Shown here: piece after piece, positions 33,546 to 39,374 of the stretch
How the letters are laid out: every line of letters starts with the position of its first letter
How positions within the stretch are numbered: the stretch's first letter is position 1
Origin: Paracidobacterium acidisoli
GTDB taxonomy: Bacteria > Acidobacteriota > Terriglobia > Terriglobales > Acidobacteriaceae
Assembly (NCBI RefSeq): GCF_003428625.2
Contig: NZ_QVQT02000003.1
Span: forward strand, 310,001 to 374,000
DNA length: 64,000 bases
Direction: 5' to 3'
Notes under the pieces: model-generated
The model's input: only the letters and a program-made list of their open reading frames with translations
Told to the model about the DNA's origin: nothing
Databases searched by the model: none
Position numbers and translations under genes: made by a program

Positions 33546-35576
33546 GTGCGTATCATCCTCAAAGGTATCCGGCGCCGCCGGCCGGAGCGTTCCGCAGCGG
33601 TGAACCGGGAGGAGAAGGTTCCTCCCGCGAAGCTTATGGTCTTTCAGTATGTGATCGCGGCGGTGATGCTGGTGCTGATCTCGGGGCTGTGGCGGCTGCA
33701 GGTGGTGGGCGCACAGAACTACCGCGAGATGGCGGAGGCGAACCGCATCCGCAAGGTACCGATCCTTGCGCCGCGCGGGAAGATCCTCGACCGCGAAGGA
33801 CGTCTGATCGTCGATAACTATCCGTCGGTCTCCTGTTTTCTGGTGCGCGATCAGGGGCACGATATCGCCGCCGATCTGCCGCTGATTGCACGCGGCCTGC
33901 ACATGACCGTCGATCAGATTCAGGAGATTCTGAAGCGCTACCGCACCGCTCCCAAATTTCAGCCCGTGCCGCTGAAACAGGACATCACGCCCGACGAGCA
34001 GGGATTCATCGAGGCGCATCTCGACGAGCTGCCGGAGCTGGAGACCATCGACGAAGAGCGGCGGCTCTATCCGAACGATGGCTTCGCCGCGCACCTGATC
34101 GGCTATGTCGGCGAGGTCAGCGAAGAGATGCTCGACGATCCGCAGTACGCGGCCTATGAGCCGGGCGATGTGGTGGGCCGCTCCGGCGTCGAGGAATCCT
34201 ACGACGCGATGCTGCGTGGCGTGGACGGGTCCAGAGATGTAATTGTGGACAGCCACGGACGCGAAGTCGGCGTGCTGGGAACGGAGCCGGCGAAGCCCGG
34301 AAAGGACCTGCGGCTGACCATCGATCTCGATATCCAGCGTGCGGCGGAGAACGCGCTTGGTGACCGCAACGGTGCGGTGGTCGCGCTCGATCCGCATACC
34401 GGCGAGATTCTGGCCCTGGTCAGCCGGCCGGTCTTTGATCCGAACAAATTTTCGGTGAAGATCGGACGCGAGGACTGGAACCGTCTCGTCACCGATCCCA
34501 ACCATCCGCTGCTCGACAAGGCCATCCAGGCGCAGCTGGCTCCGGGCTCGACCTTCAAGATCATCATGTCGGTGGCCGGGCTGCAGGAGGGCATTGCGGA
34601 GAACCTGCGAGTCGACTGCCAGGGCGGCGCCACCTTTTACGGGCACTTCTTTGCCTGCGACCGGCGCCACGGCATGGTGGACATTCACAACGCCATCCCG
34701 CTCTCCTGCGACACGTATTACTACACGCTGGCGCAGAAGCTCGGCATCGAGACCATCGCGAAGTATGCGCATGAGCTGGGGATCGGGGAAAAGACAGGCG
34801 TGGACCTGCCGGGCGAGGTCTCCGGCACCATGCCGTCGGAAGAGTGGAAGCTCAGGAACTTTCATGAGAAGTGGTATGCCGGGGAGACGATCTCGGTCGG
34901 CATCGGACAGGGAGCGGTGGCGGCGACACCGATTCAGCTCGCGCGCGCCCTGGGAGGCATCGCATCGGGCGGCGTGCTGAAGCGTCCCCATGTTGTATTT
35001 CCGGGCGAGCTGCCTGCGTATTACCGGCAGGCCGTCCAGGATTCCTATCCCGGCTCGGGCGATGTGACGGTGCCGATCGACGCATCGAACTGGGAGATCA
35101 TTACCGAGGGCATGGCCAGCACCACTGAGGCCGGGGGCACGGCCTTTGCCGCGCATCTCGACGGGATCGATTTCGCCGGAAAGACGGGAACGGCGCAGGT
35201 GGTGAGCCACAGCGCGGGCATGGATAAAATCTCCAGCAGTGTGGCGCAGCGGCCGAATGCATGGTTCGTGGGCATGGCTCCGCGGCGCAATCCCGACATC
35301 GTGGTTGCGGTCCTGTGGCAGCACGGCGGCTGGGGAAATGTCTCCGCGCCCATCGCTGCGAGTGTGATCGAAGCGTATGTGGACAAACAGCGGAGACTGC
35401 ATCACAATCTGGTAGCCGATACCTCAAAGCCGGTAAAAGACGTTATGACGAAACCTGTAGAGATTGGTGCGGTATGGTCGAAGCCGCCCGCGTCTGAGGC
35501 GCCGCGCGGCAGTCCGGTTCCGGCGCTGGCCGCGATCGATGCGGGACACTTCCGGCTGAAGCCTGAAGGGGAGTAG
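33546..35576 (+). CDS. mrdA: penicillin-binding protein 2, first tandem copy
   Basis: 676 residues; class B transpeptidase of the elongasome. One N-terminal membrane helix (VFQYVIAAVMLVLISGLW) is followed by the PBP dimer domain (about 60-240) and the transpeptidase domain. Catalytic Ser335 is in the STFK motif, SCD stands at the SxN position (IPLSCDTYYY) and KTGT starts at Lys546. The start is GTG, six bases after mreD. It is followed five bases on by a close paralogue (33546 and 35582), so the operon encodes two PBP2 proteins. The C-terminal 60 residues are Lys/Pro-rich. Confidence 0.95.
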   Translation: MRIILKGIRRRRPERSAAVNREEKVPPAKLMVFQYVIAAVMLVLISGLWRLQVVGAQNYREMAEANRIRKVPILAPRGKILDREGRLIVDNYPSVSCFLVRDQGHDIAADLPLIARGLHMTVDQIQEILKRYRTAPKFQPVPLKQDITPDEQGFIEAHLDELPELETIDEERRLYPNDGFAAHLIGYVGEVSEEMLDDPQYAAYEPGDVVGRSGVEESYDAMLRGVDGSRDVIVDSHGREVGVLGTEPAKPGKDLRLTIDLDIQRAAENALGDRNGAVVALDPHTGEILALVSRPVFDPNKFSVKIGREDWNRLVTDPNHPLLDKAIQAQLAPGSTFKIIMSVAGLQEGIAENLRVDCQGGATFYGHFFACDRRHGMVDIHNAIPLSCDTYYYTLAQKLGIETIAKYAHELGIGEKTGVDLPGEVSGTMPSEEWKLRNFHEKWYAGETISVGIGQGAVAATPIQLARALGGIASGGVLKRPHVVFPGELPAYYRQAVQDSYPGSGDVTVPIDASNWEIITEGMASTTEAGGTAFAAHLDGIDFAGKTGTAQVVSHSAGMDKISSSVAQRPNAWFVGMAPRRNPDIVVAVLWQHGGWGNVSAPIAASVIEAYVDKQRRLHHNLVADTSKPVKDVMTKPVEIGAVWSKPPASEAPRGSPVPALAAIDAGHFRLKPEGE

Positions 35577-35581
35577 CAAAG

Positions 35582-37600
35582 GTGCGCATCCGACTGAAGC
35601 TGAGCATGCCACGGCGCTGGGCGGTCCGGCGCAGCGAGGTGGCCGGGCGCGGCGAAAAGGTTCCGGCGCTGAAGCTGACGGTCTTTCAGTATGTGATCGC
35701 CGGGGTGATGCTGGTGCTGGTCTCCGGGTTATGGAGACTGCAGGTGGTGGGCGCACAGAACTACCGGGCGCTGGCGCAGGCGAACCGCATTCGCAAGGTG
35801 CCGATCCTTGCGCCGCGCGGAAAGATTCTGGATCGCGAAGGGCGTCTGATCGTCGATAACTACCCGTCGGTCTCCTGTTTTCTGGTGCGCGATCAGGGGC
35901 ACGATATCGCTCCCGACCTGCCGCTGATTGCGCGCGGCCTGCACATGACCGTCGATCAGATCGACGCGGTGCTGAAGAAATACCGTCTCGCCCCGAAGTA
36001 TCAGCCGCTGCCGCTCAGGCAGGACATCACGCCGGACGAGCAGGAGTTCATCGAGGCGCATCGCGACGAGATGCCGGAGCTGGAGACGATCCAGGAGCAG
36101 CGCCGTCTGTATCCGAAAGACGGTTTTGCGGCGCATCTGATCGGCTATGTGGGTGAGGTCAGCGAAGAGATGCTGAACGACCCGCAGTATGCCGCCTATG
36201 AGCCGGGTGATGTAGTGGGCCGCTCGGGCGTCGAGGCCTCCTACGATCAGATACTGCGCGGCACCGACGGCTCCGAGGATGTGGTCGTCGACAGCCATGG
36301 CCGCGAGATGGGTAAGCTGGGCATGGAGCCGGCAAAGCCCGGGCACAGCCTGCGGCTGACGATGGATATCGATATTCAGCGCGCGGCGGAGAATGCGCTT
36401 GGCGACCGCAACGGCGCGGTCATTGCCATGGACCCGCATACGGGGGAGATCCTGGCGCTGGTCAGCCGTCCGACCTTCGATCCGAATGATTTTGCAGTGC
36501 GCATCTCGCGGGATGAGTGGAGCAAGCTGATCAGCGATCCGGAGCATCCGCTGCTGAACAAGGCGATTCAGGCGCAGCTTGCGCCGGGATCGACCTTCAA
36601 GATCATCATGTCGGCCGCGGGACTCGAAGAAGGCGTGGCGCAGACGCTGAACGTGCATTGCTCGGGTGGCGTGAGTTTTTACGGCCATTATCAGCGGTGC
36701 TGGGTGCACGGTGGTCATGGCGAGGTCAACATCACGAAGGGGATTTACCAGTCCTGCGACGTGTTTTTCTACACGCTGGCGGTGCGCCTGGGAATTGAAA
36801 AGATCGCCAAATGGGCGAATGCCTTCGGCATCGGCGTGAAGACCGGCATCGATCTGCCGAATGAGGTCGCCGGCACCATGCCTTCCGAAGAGTGGAAGAT
36901 GAAGAACTTCCATCAGAAGTGGTATCCGGGCGAGGTGACATCGGTCGGCATCGGCCAGGGAGCGGTGACGGCTACTCCGGTGCAGATGATGCGGGCGATT
37001 GCCGGCATCACCTCGGGAGGCGCGCTGAAGCGGCCGCATGTCGTGAACCTGAACGATCCGGAGAACGGGATACCGCAGGATTTCCGGACGGCGCTTGAGG
37101 AGTCGTACTCCGGCAGCGGCGACCGGACCGTTCCGTTTGAGCGCGAGGACTGGGAGACGATCACCGATGCGATGGCCGATGTGACGATGCCCATCGGCAC
37201 CGACCCGAGCGCGCATCTGGAGGGGATCGACTTCGCGGGCAAGACGGGCAGCGCGCAGACCATGAGCAATGCGCTCGCCGCGCGTCTCGGCCATGCACAT
37301 TCGATGCATGACAATGCGTGGTTCGTGGGCGTGGCTCCGCGGAGAAACCCGGATATCGCGGTGTGCGTGCTGTTTGAGGCCGGCGAGCACGGCAAGCTGG
37401 CGGGCCGTCTGGCGGCGCGTGTGATCGAGGCGTATGTGAACAAGCAGCGGCGGCTCCAGCACAACCTGGTGGCTGAGGCTCCGAAGAAGATTGAGGTCAG
37501 CGCCATCTGGTCCATCCCCGGCCTTCCGAACGACGGAAAGCAGAAGCCGGTGATGACGGCGATATATGCAGGTCACTTCATGACAAATGGGAATGAGTGA
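35582..37600 (+). CDS. mrdA: penicillin-binding protein 2, second tandem copy
   Basis: 672 residues, strongly similar to the preceding gene over its whole length, including long identical runs in the N-terminal half (for example VDNYPSVSCFLVRDQGHDIA). Catalytic Ser337 lies in STFK, SCD stands at the SxN position and KTGS starts at Lys554, so it looks active. The copies differ most around the HYQRCWVHGGHGEVN and VVNLNDPENGIPQDF segments and at the C-terminus. GTG 35582 follows GGGGAG, and the spacing to copy one is five bases, so they should be co-translated. It could be a specialised PBP2 for another growth phase or RodA partner. Confidence 0.95.
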   Translation: MRIRLKLSMPRRWAVRRSEVAGRGEKVPALKLTVFQYVIAGVMLVLVSGLWRLQVVGAQNYRALAQANRIRKVPILAPRGKILDREGRLIVDNYPSVSCFLVRDQGHDIAPDLPLIARGLHMTVDQIDAVLKKYRLAPKYQPLPLRQDITPDEQEFIEAHRDEMPELETIQEQRRLYPKDGFAAHLIGYVGEVSEEMLNDPQYAAYEPGDVVGRSGVEASYDQILRGTDGSEDVVVDSHGREMGKLGMEPAKPGHSLRLTMDIDIQRAAENALGDRNGAVIAMDPHTGEILALVSRPTFDPNDFAVRISRDEWSKLISDPEHPLLNKAIQAQLAPGSTFKIIMSAAGLEEGVAQTLNVHCSGGVSFYGHYQRCWVHGGHGEVNITKGIYQSCDVFFYTLAVRLGIEKIAKWANAFGIGVKTGIDLPNEVAGTMPSEEWKMKNFHQKWYPGEVTSVGIGQGAVTATPVQMMRAIAGITSGGALKRPHVVNLNDPENGIPQDFRTALEESYSGSGDRTVPFEREDWETITDAMADVTMPIGTDPSAHLEGIDFAGKTGSAQTMSNALAARLGHAHSMHDNAWFVGVAPRRNPDIAVCVLFEAGEHGKLAGRLAARVIEAYVNKQRRLQHNLVAEAPKKIEVSAIWSIPGLPNDGKQKPVMTAIYAGHFMTNGNE

Positions 37601-37707: not shown

Positions 37708-37752
37708 TTGTCATCCCGACCGCAGCGCAGCGAAGTGGAGGGATCTGCATTT
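37708..37752 (+). repeat. left REP-like element flanking the GIY-YIG gene
   Basis: Contains TTGTCATCCCGACCG (37708-37722) and GTGGAGGGATCTGCATTT (37735-37752). Both blocks recur perfectly, inverted, in the right element at 38087-38176. The element ends 25 bases before the nuclease start. Confidence 0.85.
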
Positions 37753-37777
37753 ACAAACCTCAATCGTTGCAGGATTC

Positions 37778-38077
37778 ATGAAAGATCGCGAGCACAACTA
37801 TTACGTGTATCTGATGGCAAGCAGGATGCTGGTGCTCTATTGTGGCGTGACCAGCAACATCGGATGCCGAGTGGGCCAGCACAAAGATCATGAAACTCCC
37901 GGTTTCTGTGCGACATACAACTGTGATCGGCTTGTATGGTTTGAGCGTTATCAGTACATCGGGAATGCCATTGCAAGAGAAAAGCAGATCAAAAACTGGC
38001 GCCGGGAGAAGAAGCTTGCGCTGGTGAATGCTGCCAATTCATCGTGGGTTGATCTCAGTGAAGGGTGGTTCGACTGA
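37778..38077 (+). CDS. short GIY-YIG nuclease-domain protein
   Basis: About 99 residues. The GIY-YIG core is YYVYLMASR followed by LYCGVTSN, then Arg in GCRVGQHKD and the AREKQIKNWRREKK helix. The second motif reads YCG instead of YIG, a variant of the small UPF0213/UvrC-N-like group. It ends in SSWVDLSEGWFD. ATG 37778 follows AGGA. The gene is bracketed by inverted REP-like elements and sits between mrdA and rodA in the cell-shape operon. It is presumably a DNA nuclease; a role in spreading the flanking repeats is a hypothesis. Confidence 0.88.
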   Translation: MKDREHNYYVYLMASRMLVLYCGVTSNIGCRVGQHKDHETPGFCATYNCDRLVWFERYQYIGNAIAREKQIKNWRREKKLALVNAANSSWVDLSEGWFD

Positions 38078-38086
38078 AAAAAGAGA

Positions 38087-38176
38087 AAATGCAGATCCCT
38101 CCACTGCGCTTCTCCACCCCATCGCACGAACAACGTGTGCGCCGGGGACCCCGGTTCGCTCCGGTCGGGATGACAA
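38087..38176 (-). repeat. right REP-like element flanking the GIY-YIG gene
   Basis: Inverted counterpart of the left element: AAATGCAGATCCCTCCAC (38087-38104) and CGGTCGGGATGACAA (38162-38176) match its two blocks perfectly. Between them it has about 57 bases, 45 more than the left copy, including the palindrome CCGGGGACCCCGG. It starts ten bases after the nuclease stop. Confidence 0.85.
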
Positions 38177-38276: not shown

Positions 38277-39374
38277 ATGCGCCGTTTCCTCTCTCTCCGC
38301 GATTTTGACTGGACGCTGCTGGGCTTCGTGCTGATCCTTTCGGTGGTCAGCGTCTTTGAGATTTACAGCGCCACGCTGCACACCAAGTTTGTCGGCTTTT
38401 ACCGCTTCCAGATCCTCTGGCTGTGCGGCGGCATGGCCATGATGTTCCTGATGTCGGTGATCGACTATCATCTGCTGCTCGACATCGTGCACTGGATCTA
38501 CGGCTTTTTCATGCTGGCTCTGGTCGGAGTGCTGGCGACCCCGAAGGTCATGGGCGCCAGGCGCTGGATTAAGCTGCCCGGGGGCATTCACTTTCAGCCC
38601 TCGGAGTGGGTCAAGCTGGTGCTGATCGTCATTATGGCCCGGTACTTTGCCGGCCTGGTGGGGCGCGAGCTGACCTGGAAGGATATCTTCAAGGCGATCG
38701 CCCTGGTGGCCATCCCCATGCTGCTGGTGCTGAAGCAGCCCGACCTGGGCACGTCGCTGACCTACTCGCCGGTGCTGCTGGTGGGGCTGTTTCTGGGCGG
38801 AATCGACTGGAAGAAGGGGGCGATACTGATTCTGGCAGTGATTCTGGGCGCGGGCGGCATCTGGATGAGCGGCAAGGTGCTGAAGCCGTATCAGAAGGCC
38901 CGGCTGACCAGCTTTATCAACCCCGATGCCGATCCCAAAGGGACGGGCTACCAGATCATCCAGTCAAAGATCGCCGTCGGCGACGGAGGGGTCTTTGGAC
39001 GGGGCGCCACCAGGGGCACCCAGACCCAGGGCGACTTTCTGCCCATCCCGTATACCGACTTCATCTTTGCCGCCTTCTGCGAAGAGCACGGGTTCATCGG
39101 CGCGGTCATCGTGTTGCTGATATACTTCCTCGTATTGATGCGTTTGATTCAAAACGCTCAAACAGCCGCAGACCTCCCGGGAACGTTCCTGGTGATGGGC
39201 GTGGTGGCCGTCCTGATTTTTCAGATCGCGGTCAATGTCGGAATGGTCGTTGGGCTGATGCCGGTTACCGGAATTCCTCTTCCGCTGATGAGCTACGGAG
39301 GGTCCTCGGTACTGTTTACGTTTCTGGCTTTGGGCATGGTGATGAACGTCCGCATGAGCCGCTTCGTGAACTGA
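38277..39374 (+). CDS. rodA: peptidoglycan glycosyltransferase RodA
   Basis: 365 residues, SEDS family, about ten membrane helices. Signature segments are GARRWIKLPGGIHFQPSEWVKL, the KPYQKARLTSFINPDADPKGTGYQIIQSKIAVG loop region and GIPLPLMSYGGSSVLFTFLALGM. RodA polymerises glycan strands with PBP2. It normally follows mrdA directly; here 676 bases with the GIY-YIG cassette separate them, so rodA may depend on readthrough or on its own promoter at 38177-38276. Confidence 0.96.
   Translation: MRRFLSLRDFDWTLLGFVLILSVVSVFEIYSATLHTKFVGFYRFQILWLCGGMAMMFLMSVIDYHLLLDIVHWIYGFFMLALVGVLATPKVMGARRWIKLPGGIHFQPSEWVKLVLIVIMARYFAGLVGRELTWKDIFKAIALVAIPMLLVLKQPDLGTSLTYSPVLLVGLFLGGIDWKKGAILILAVILGAGGIWMSGKVLKPYQKARLTSFINPDADPKGTGYQIIQSKIAVGDGGVFGRGATRGTQTQGDFLPIPYTDFIFAAFCEEHGFIGAVIVLLIYFLVLMRLIQNAQTAADLPGTFLVMGVVAVLIFQIAVNVGMVVGLMPVTGIPLPLMSYGGSSVLFTFLALGMVMNVRMSRFVN

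Follow-up and report, generated by a model that had tools for sequence, protein, structure and literature searches.

A GIY-YIG nuclease gene between inverted repeat arms in the cell-shape operon of Paracidobacterium acidisoli, a candidate minimal mobile element

The arm-gene-arm unit between mrdA and rodA

The window, that is, the whole stretch of 64,000 nucleotides analysed here (Paracidobacterium acidisoli, contig NZ_QVQT02000003.1, positions 310,001 to 374,000), carries a cell-shape operon in which a small nuclease gene and two inverted repeats, hereafter called arms, lie between mrdA and rodA. The features are listed below with their positions in the window.

35582..37600, + strand: mrdA (PBP2), second of two tandem copies, the upstream neighbour (ORF and domain match)
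37708..38176, + strand: whole putative mobile unit, arm - GIY-YIG gene - arm, 469 bp (inverted repeats; in genome G065 the units are homologous only up to the outer arm ends)
37708..37752, + strand: left arm, predicted class I hairpin, TTGTCATCCC-GA-C...G-GA-GGGATCTGCATTT (feet the same as in 20 other strict copies in the genome)
37778..38077, + strand: GIY-YIG nuclease, 99 aa, single domain, UPF0213/Slx1-like (PF01541, E 1.4e-11; model pLDDT 94; fold nearest to 1zg2, then Slx1)
38087..38176, - strand: right arm, inverted, with about 45 extra bases inside (sequence and inverted-repeat comparison)
38141..38154, + strand: core of a second dispersed repeat family, GCCGGGGACCCCGG, inside the right arm (genome-wide match count)
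38277..39374, + strand: rodA, the downstream neighbour (ORF and domain match)

The tandem mrdA (PBP2) genes, at 33546-35576 and 35582-37600, both belong to the one cell-shape operon.

A first-pass annotation of this DNA had described a 99-residue GIY-YIG gene between inverted elements, and the elements lie where it placed them; the protein matches PF01541. The gene starts with the ATG at 37778 and stops at 38075-38077, at distances of 25 nt and 9 nt from the arms; of the two spacings given earlier, 25 bases stands and 10 has to be replaced by 9. The outer arm blocks contain the 15 perfectly matching nt that had been reported, within a 25-nt pair (37708-37732 versus 38152-38176) that is 88% complementary. 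The inner blocks form a 24-nt pair with one mismatch (37729-37752 versus 38087-38110), in which 19 nt, and not the 18 reported, match perfectly. Between the two 300-nt flanks the best inverted repeat reaches a score of 43, and in shifted controls (1985 windows pooled over 110 loci) the 99th percentile is 28 and the 99.9th is 42.2. One control window scored 127, so other repeats are present among the controls. No long T run follows the window arms, and no Rfam family reached its gathering score in the window.

The roughly 45 extra bases of the right arm, which had been noted together with their palindrome, are real, and their core is a second dispersed repeat. When one mismatch is allowed, GCCGGGGACCCCGG matches the own genome 34 times on the forward and 29 times on the reverse strand, 40 of the matches being exact, and the reversed control has 0. 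Since this sequence is near-palindromic, one place may be counted on both strands. Besides 38141-38154 it occurs exactly at 39 other places in the genome, several times in pairs 43-45 bp apart. It was also seen near GTCAT arms with GGTGGGGCACCC and CCCATGTCCG..CGGACATGGG stretches, like a composite repeat.

The genome of P. acidisoli (5.0 Mb, 97% complete, the only genome of its genus) contains one homologue of the window protein at E 0.01. A strict search found 21 arm copies in it, including the left arm of the unit, versus 0 in the reversed control, so the first-pass proposal to look for solitary copies of the repeat had a positive outcome. The feet GTCATCCCGACCG and GGAGGGATCT are common to these copies by construction of the search; most inspected contexts have TT before and GC after the arm, and the middle varies. 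A PF01797 (RAYT) match is absent from this genome at E 1e-5.

The AlphaFold model of the window protein, made with 38 homologues as input, is confident (mean pLDDT 94.2). The only solved structure that it matches below E 0.001 is the UPF0213 protein BH0048 (1zg2, E 6.5e-4), and Slx1 chains come next in the fold search, weakly (E 0.02 and up, Foldseek probability 0.97-1.00). The sequence profile of the nuclease matches 1zg2 and 1ywl. In the nuclease alignment Y21, E68 and N87 are conserved in 137/137 sequences, R31 in 136/137 and Y11 in 133/135. These conserved Tyr, Tyr, Arg, Glu and Asn are the catalytic residues of GIY-YIG enzymes, and their conservation suggests that cutting matters. Together with the fold, the five residues satisfy membership of the GIY-YIG superfamily, and GIY-YIG is the sole domain found in the unit, with no DDE, HUH, Ser or Tyr transposase. 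No family for the window protein was found in PHROGs or NCBIfam, and no homologue in phage records. Among 38 nuclease members, one touches a single PADLOC model, weakly, and four match the NCBIfam model for group I intron endonucleases, also weakly (best E 1.6e-4). An internal stop is present in 7 of 137 nuclease copies. Within the own family (Acidobacteriaceae) the nuclease is found in 127 of 200 genomes, with no more than nine copies per genome.

Bracketing, dispersal and sites without the unit

Peptide patterns of the window protein had found 156 relatives, of which the best 80, from many phyla, served as a wide set of loci to examine bracketing by arms; this choice favours near relatives. 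The best inverted repeat of the flanks exceeded the 99th percentile of the controls at 49 of the 80 wide loci and at 20 of 29 own-family loci. A relaxed arm motif (GTC, A[CT]NNN, up to ~60 nt, complement, C) was present on both sides of the gene at 53 of 79 wide loci, on one side at 23 and on neither at 3. Its density was 4.96 per kb within 300 nt of the gene, 0.222 beyond 600 nt and 0.02 in shuffled DNA; outside ORFs only, it was 6.01 near versus 0.55 far (110 loci). The arm foot, GTC before A[CT], was required by the scans, but it is also present in free inverted-repeat alignments.

In the own family the relaxed motif, with its 5-nt stem, was found on both sides at 9 of 29 loci, on one side at 5 and on neither at 15; these few matches are probably due for the most part to GGACC variants that break the basal pair. 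A short relaxed tag, which is a fairer test of bracketing in this family, lay on both sides at 25 of the 29 loci and on one side at the other 4. Among 20 further own-family copies it lay on both sides of 18, on one side of 1 and on neither side of 1. At rodA control loci the short tag was on both sides in 0 of 26 cases, on one side in 2 (L167 and L181) and on neither in 24, three loci with short flanks having been left out. One own-family locus (L046) and one of the wide set (L089) had been dropped for the same reason. The strictest motif (7-nt stem) lay on both sides at 35 of 108 loci and on one side at 21, with 0 near the gene in the own family. Among ten plasmid loci, L132 (Rhizobium) has no arm, L140 an inverted hairpin pair with a variant foot and L141 a one-sided arm. 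The idea of a mobile unit would have been refuted if most GIY-YIG homologues lacked flanking repeats; most loci of the wide set and, by the relaxed tag, of the own family are bracketed.

Dispersed copies were seen within single genomes. Genome G065 has three copies of the unit in unrelated surroundings, 69-78% identical, whose homology starts and stops within a few bases of CTCTGTCAT and ATGACAGAG (over the full length in two of the three pairs). These copies are bounded by the element ends, as is asked of an insertion sequence. In genome G176 two copies have an identical right outer end, and one of them is without a recognisable left arm. Judged by such sequence comparisons, arm-gene-arm appears to be a unit that moves as one piece.

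The unit is absent at orthologous sites. At the G065 site, 35 nt separate the two flanks in congener G116, where stop and start codon are 25 nt from each other. In all four congeners with both flanks on one stretch (G116, G158, G200 and G201) the nuclease and the tag are absent, and three of these four hold other DNA there. The mrdA-rodA locus was fetched from 29 relatives, 23 of which have mrdA just upstream of rodA, as the earlier remark that these genes are normally adjacent and are split here by the unit had implied. The nuclease is present in none of the 29, hence in 0 of the 23 comparable loci, and the gap between the two genes is at most 76 nt in 19 of the 23 versus 676 in the window. 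In L159-L162, four of the closest relatives, mrdA was not found beside rodA, which makes them unusable as empty sites, and the stretches of L165 and L183 start too near rodA to judge the position of mrdA. L167 bears an inverted arm pair without a gene, and L181 a decayed single arm.

Among Sphingobium plasmids, three aligned alleles have the unit and four do not. The unit-less allele L144 bears a perfect symmetric palindrome exactly at the unit site, built like two outer arm halves; L142 has an imperfect palindrome, L145 another hairpin and L143 nothing recognisable. Comparison of Sinorhizobium L136 with the unit-less L146 gave the palindrome case again, with one foot mismatch. An uninterrupted putative target is present at two of the four unit-less Sphingobium alleles (one imperfect) and in Sinorhizobium, and not in G116. 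The 110 loci contain few symmetric palindromes (4 distant from the genes and 1 close by, compared with 77 distant asymmetric ones), and those at the unit-less alleles are compatible with a homing target as well as with a collapsed unit. One base is deleted from the nuclease of allele L147, and L136 contains what is left of a second copy, the kind of decay that a mobile gene would be expected to show. Inspection by eye revealed no target-site duplication at the plasmid alleles or at the G065 and G176 copies, where the sequences have diverged.

Arm classes, arm density and the nuclease

The arms fall into two classes as defined here. Class I arms have five basal pairs, facing GA and GA, and then a variable pair, and class II arms have seven or more pairs. 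Covariation was measured on pairs that were not selected for by the motif scan. Of 68 distinct class I arms, 66 have a Watson-Crick pair inside the tandem GA, with four types, against a shuffled expectation of 27.7 (maximum 41 over 500 shuffles). Class II arms are Watson-Crick at pair 7 in 56/56 cases versus 26.9 shuffled (maximum 38) and at pair 8 in 52/56 versus 36.4 (maximum 44); pair 6 (50/56) is no better than shuffled, as it hardly varies. Folded as single strands, the window arms have energies no better than those of shuffled sequences (z -0.18 and -0.81), and of two short arms folded separately the class II one is better than shuffled (z -3.83). The prediction that the arms form hairpins rests on covariation, not on folding energy.

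Arm class is coupled to the nuclease. On a tree of 137 nucleases, 93 of which were classed (44 class I, 49 class II), 4 changes account for arm class, whereas shuffled labels need about 31 and 0 of 500 shuffles were as low as 4; the 44 nucleases without an arm class were left out. A phylum name (17 different ones, counting candidate phyla) is available for 60 of the classed rows. Over these rows 3 changes suffice for class and 20 for phylum, which indicates that arm class follows the nuclease and not the host. These two counts are not strictly comparable, phylum being many-state. The tree rests on only 95 columns and leaves many forks unresolved, and the near-copies in it favour clustering of any label.

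The number of arms is also associated with the nuclease. Arm tags were counted in the 200 own-family (Acidobacteriaceae) genomes with one arm spelling, which is not the commonest of the own genome, and at most one mismatch. The counts ranged from 6 to 341 per genome, with a handful in the reversed control. The median was 18.2 tags per Mb in genomes with the nuclease (n=127) versus 7.9 in those without (n=73; p 8e-9), and 15.2 with a RAYT domain (n=171) versus 9.8 without (n=29; p 0.13). Divided by both genes, it was 31.8 with the nuclease and no RAYT (n=12), 17.5 with both (n=115), 9.5 with RAYT only (n=56) and 5.5 with neither (n=17). Tag density correlated with nuclease density (rho 0.47) and with RAYT density (rho 0.27). 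When only genomes at least 90% complete were considered (n=149), RAYT carriers had 15.5 versus 5.5 tags per Mb (p 0.02). Within mixed genera, nuclease carriers were richer in arms in 21 of 26 cases (p 0.0025), with the opposite in 5, and RAYT carriers in 10 of 18. These results showed that arm density follows nuclease presence more than RAYT presence.

Although a RAYT domain is present in 171 of the 200 own-family genomes, the GTCAT tag was beside none of 19 own-family RAYT loci, 17 of which have a different strong inverted repeat, in most cases with a TAGCCC foot. The stray stretch L204 was left out of this set. At most of the RAYT loci (L188-L203 and L205-L207) the gene is flanked by long inverted composites of AGTCCCGNAGGGACG-like and TAGCCCAGCGC..GCGCTGGG-like sequence, which make up a separate REP set.

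Arms also occur where the gene is missing: genome G032, on one contig, has 198 tags and no nuclease match. A profile search matched none in ten of the eleven most arm-rich nuclease-less genomes, nor in six arm-poor nuclease-less ones, with no positive control genome in either case. For six of the ten arm-rich genomes a congener carries the gene, which may therefore have been lost after it had spread.

Interpretation and relation to known systems

Taken together, these features suggest that the unit is probably a minimal mobile element, a Slx1-like GIY-YIG nuclease between matched hairpin arms, for which cutting and repair-copying are inferred. Each arm would fold into a hairpin with a conserved GTC foot. 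The nuclease would recognise the arm as a hairpin or cruciform, which its likeness to Slx1 proposes as the natural substrate, and each nuclease lineage would be matched to its own arm class. It would then cut its own arms as well as solitary ones at other places. Host repair, with the help of arm homology, might fill the break with a copy of the unit or of one arm alone, which is a guess; gene-less pairs and solitary arms would be by-products of this copying. Arm binding, arm cutting and repair-driven, homing-like copying are inferred only, without biochemical evidence. We know of no GIY-YIG nuclease that joins DNA, so movement would need host help, which has not been shown. The nuclease would play for GTCAT-type repeats the part that RAYT plays for REPs, as an unrelated enzyme. 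This analogy is a good one, and the interpretation of the first-pass annotation, which drew it, is supported by all three checks made (solitary copies, flanked homologues and loci without the unit), and binding or nicking and the copying route remain unproven.

The repeats might instead be made by something else, the nuclease being a homing parasite that inserts into existing repeats. We regard this as unlikely, though it remains the alternative with most in its favour. In its favour, unit-less alleles at two orthologous sites have one symmetric palindrome in the place of the unit (in Sphingobium L144 and, imperfectly, L142; in Sinorhizobium L146, where one base of a foot is mismatched), arms persist in genomes without the gene, and the weak matches of 4/38 members to the group I intron endonuclease model point the same way. 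However, both arm class and arm density follow the nuclease, the G116 site and most mrdA-rodA sites are without any repeat, and the rare symmetric palindromes may be collapsed units. A host enzyme that polices or processes the repeats, with gene and repeats kept together by selection and not by mobility, is improbable. Patchy presence (127/200) with as many as nine copies in a genome, the dispersal of units that end at their arms, absence at orthologous sites and decayed copies (7/137 with an internal stop) all speak against it, even if the fold is Slx1-like, Slx1-like enzymes may cut cruciforms and the distant E. coli relative YhbQ is annotated as a DNA damage response nuclease; no arm motif was found in 10 kb of sequence around E. 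coli yhbQ itself.

It is very unlikely that RAYT moves the GTCAT repeats in trans with the nuclease as a passenger. The repeat lies beside 0 of 19 RAYT loci, 17 of which have another inverted repeat, the own genome has no RAYT match, the genomes richest in tags have the nuclease and no RAYT, and the within-genus RAYT effect is absent (10/18). These points outweigh the presence of the domain in 171/200 own-family genomes and its correlation with tags (rho 0.27; p 0.02 in near-complete genomes). Least tenable of all, and rejected, is the idea that the arms do no more than terminate transcription or act as regulatory hairpins for a small gene. Their ability to form hairpins and their position on either side of the gene agree with it, but other copies lie through the genome, L167 has an inverted pair without a gene, no long T run follows the window arms and the arm classes are clade-specific.

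If the unit is a mobile element, REP/RAYT systems are an obvious comparison. According to the accessible part of Nunvar 2010 (PMC2817692), RAYT genes are flanked by two inverted imperfect palindromes (REPs) with a conserved short foot, REP copies occur through the genome with their palindromes kept by complementary change, and many REPs in its table have a GTAG foot. The present unit is similar in that its gene lies between two inverted palindromes also found elsewhere in the genome and in that nuclease lineage and arm class go together (4 changes versus ~31). It differs in its enzyme, a GIY-YIG protein with PF01541 only in place of the Y1 HUH domain PF01797, in its foot, GTC before A and not GTAG, and in that GTCAT arms lie beside none of the 19 RAYTs. 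It also differs from insertion sequences, as there is no DDE, HUH, Ser or Tyr transposase between its inverted ends. The unit thus fails the enzyme test of REP-RAYT and of the known insertion sequence classes, yet works like them, by a mechanism that is unproven. The gene-less inverted pair of L167, in the same intergenic region, is like a MITE or REPIN, except that the presumed autonomous partner of the arms is a GIY-YIG nuclease.

GIY-YIG homing endonucleases of the I-TevI type share the selfish nuclease gene, the catalytic domain and, at two sites, a unit-less allele with an uninterrupted palindrome. Unlike them, the unit has no intron, its 99-aa protein has no second domain, target-like copies are many per genome and the arms are carried by the unit itself. 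The Slx1-like/UPF0213/COG2827 proteins (YhbQ, BH0048) resemble the nuclease in their single GIY-YIG domain, in being nearest in fold and in the profile match to 1zg2 and 1ywl, whereas E. coli yhbQ, the only outsider examined, is not bracketed and aligns over the first third only. In N. gonorrhoeae the nuclease copy L134 lies among GTCATTCCCGCG...CGGGAATC hairpins, which resemble the neisserial dRS3 repeats; no link between dRS3 and a mobile nuclease was found in the open-access literature.

Slx1 with Slx4 processes branched DNA, as stated in the title of entry 6seh and in the accessible part of PMC7017083, where YhbQ and YazA are also assigned to the Slx1 family. In the portions available, the survey of GIY-YIG nucleases by Dunin-Horkawicz 2006 (PMC1564403) does not mention such repeats, PMC1839093 reports three small COG2827 genes in Caulobacter, the Moraxella gene table of PMC9465073 has a GIY-YIG endonuclease and RayT as separate entries, and PMC7593972 contains the Neisseria arm spelling only inside a construct sequence. 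Among the matches listed, judged by their titles and the openings of their abstracts, no description of a GIY-YIG and arm unit was found in the open-access literature (subscription papers and preprints were outside the scope), which agrees with the earlier statement that none was known.

A wider claim, about as likely as not, is that there is a bacteria-wide class of minimal elements in which a 90-100-aa Slx1-like GIY-YIG nuclease cuts hairpins, spreads by repair copying and makes the GTCA(T/C)N...N(A/G)TC intergenic repeats of many phyla, including GTCATTCCCGCG in Neisseria. To our knowledge no maker of GTCAT-type intergenic repeats has been described, and a nuclease that is bracketed by the repeats, tracks their number and matches their class is a concrete, testable candidate. 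A gene-plus-hairpin unit in many phyla may explain the origin of a common short genome repeat family. If this holds, the strategy of REP-RAYT evolved twice, on the second occasion with an enzyme that is not known to join DNA; the joining step must then come from the host, and there is a small nuclease family with natural class I and class II hairpin specificities.

Some further loci deserve mention. In L124 and L126 the arms form regular direct arrays beside the gene, with a period of 45 bp in L124 and ~76 bp in L126, possibly a growth mode of the repeats. On Planktothrix plasmid p1 (L135), the nuclease lies with several GTCATTCTGAG repeats between a MmeI-type restriction gene and the DISARM gene drmA. 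The nuclease homologue of N. gonorrhoeae NZ_CP119140 (L134) is absent from the PLSDB gene table; this record and NZ_CP119142, at ~2.17 Mb each, are chromosome-sized and are filed as plasmids.
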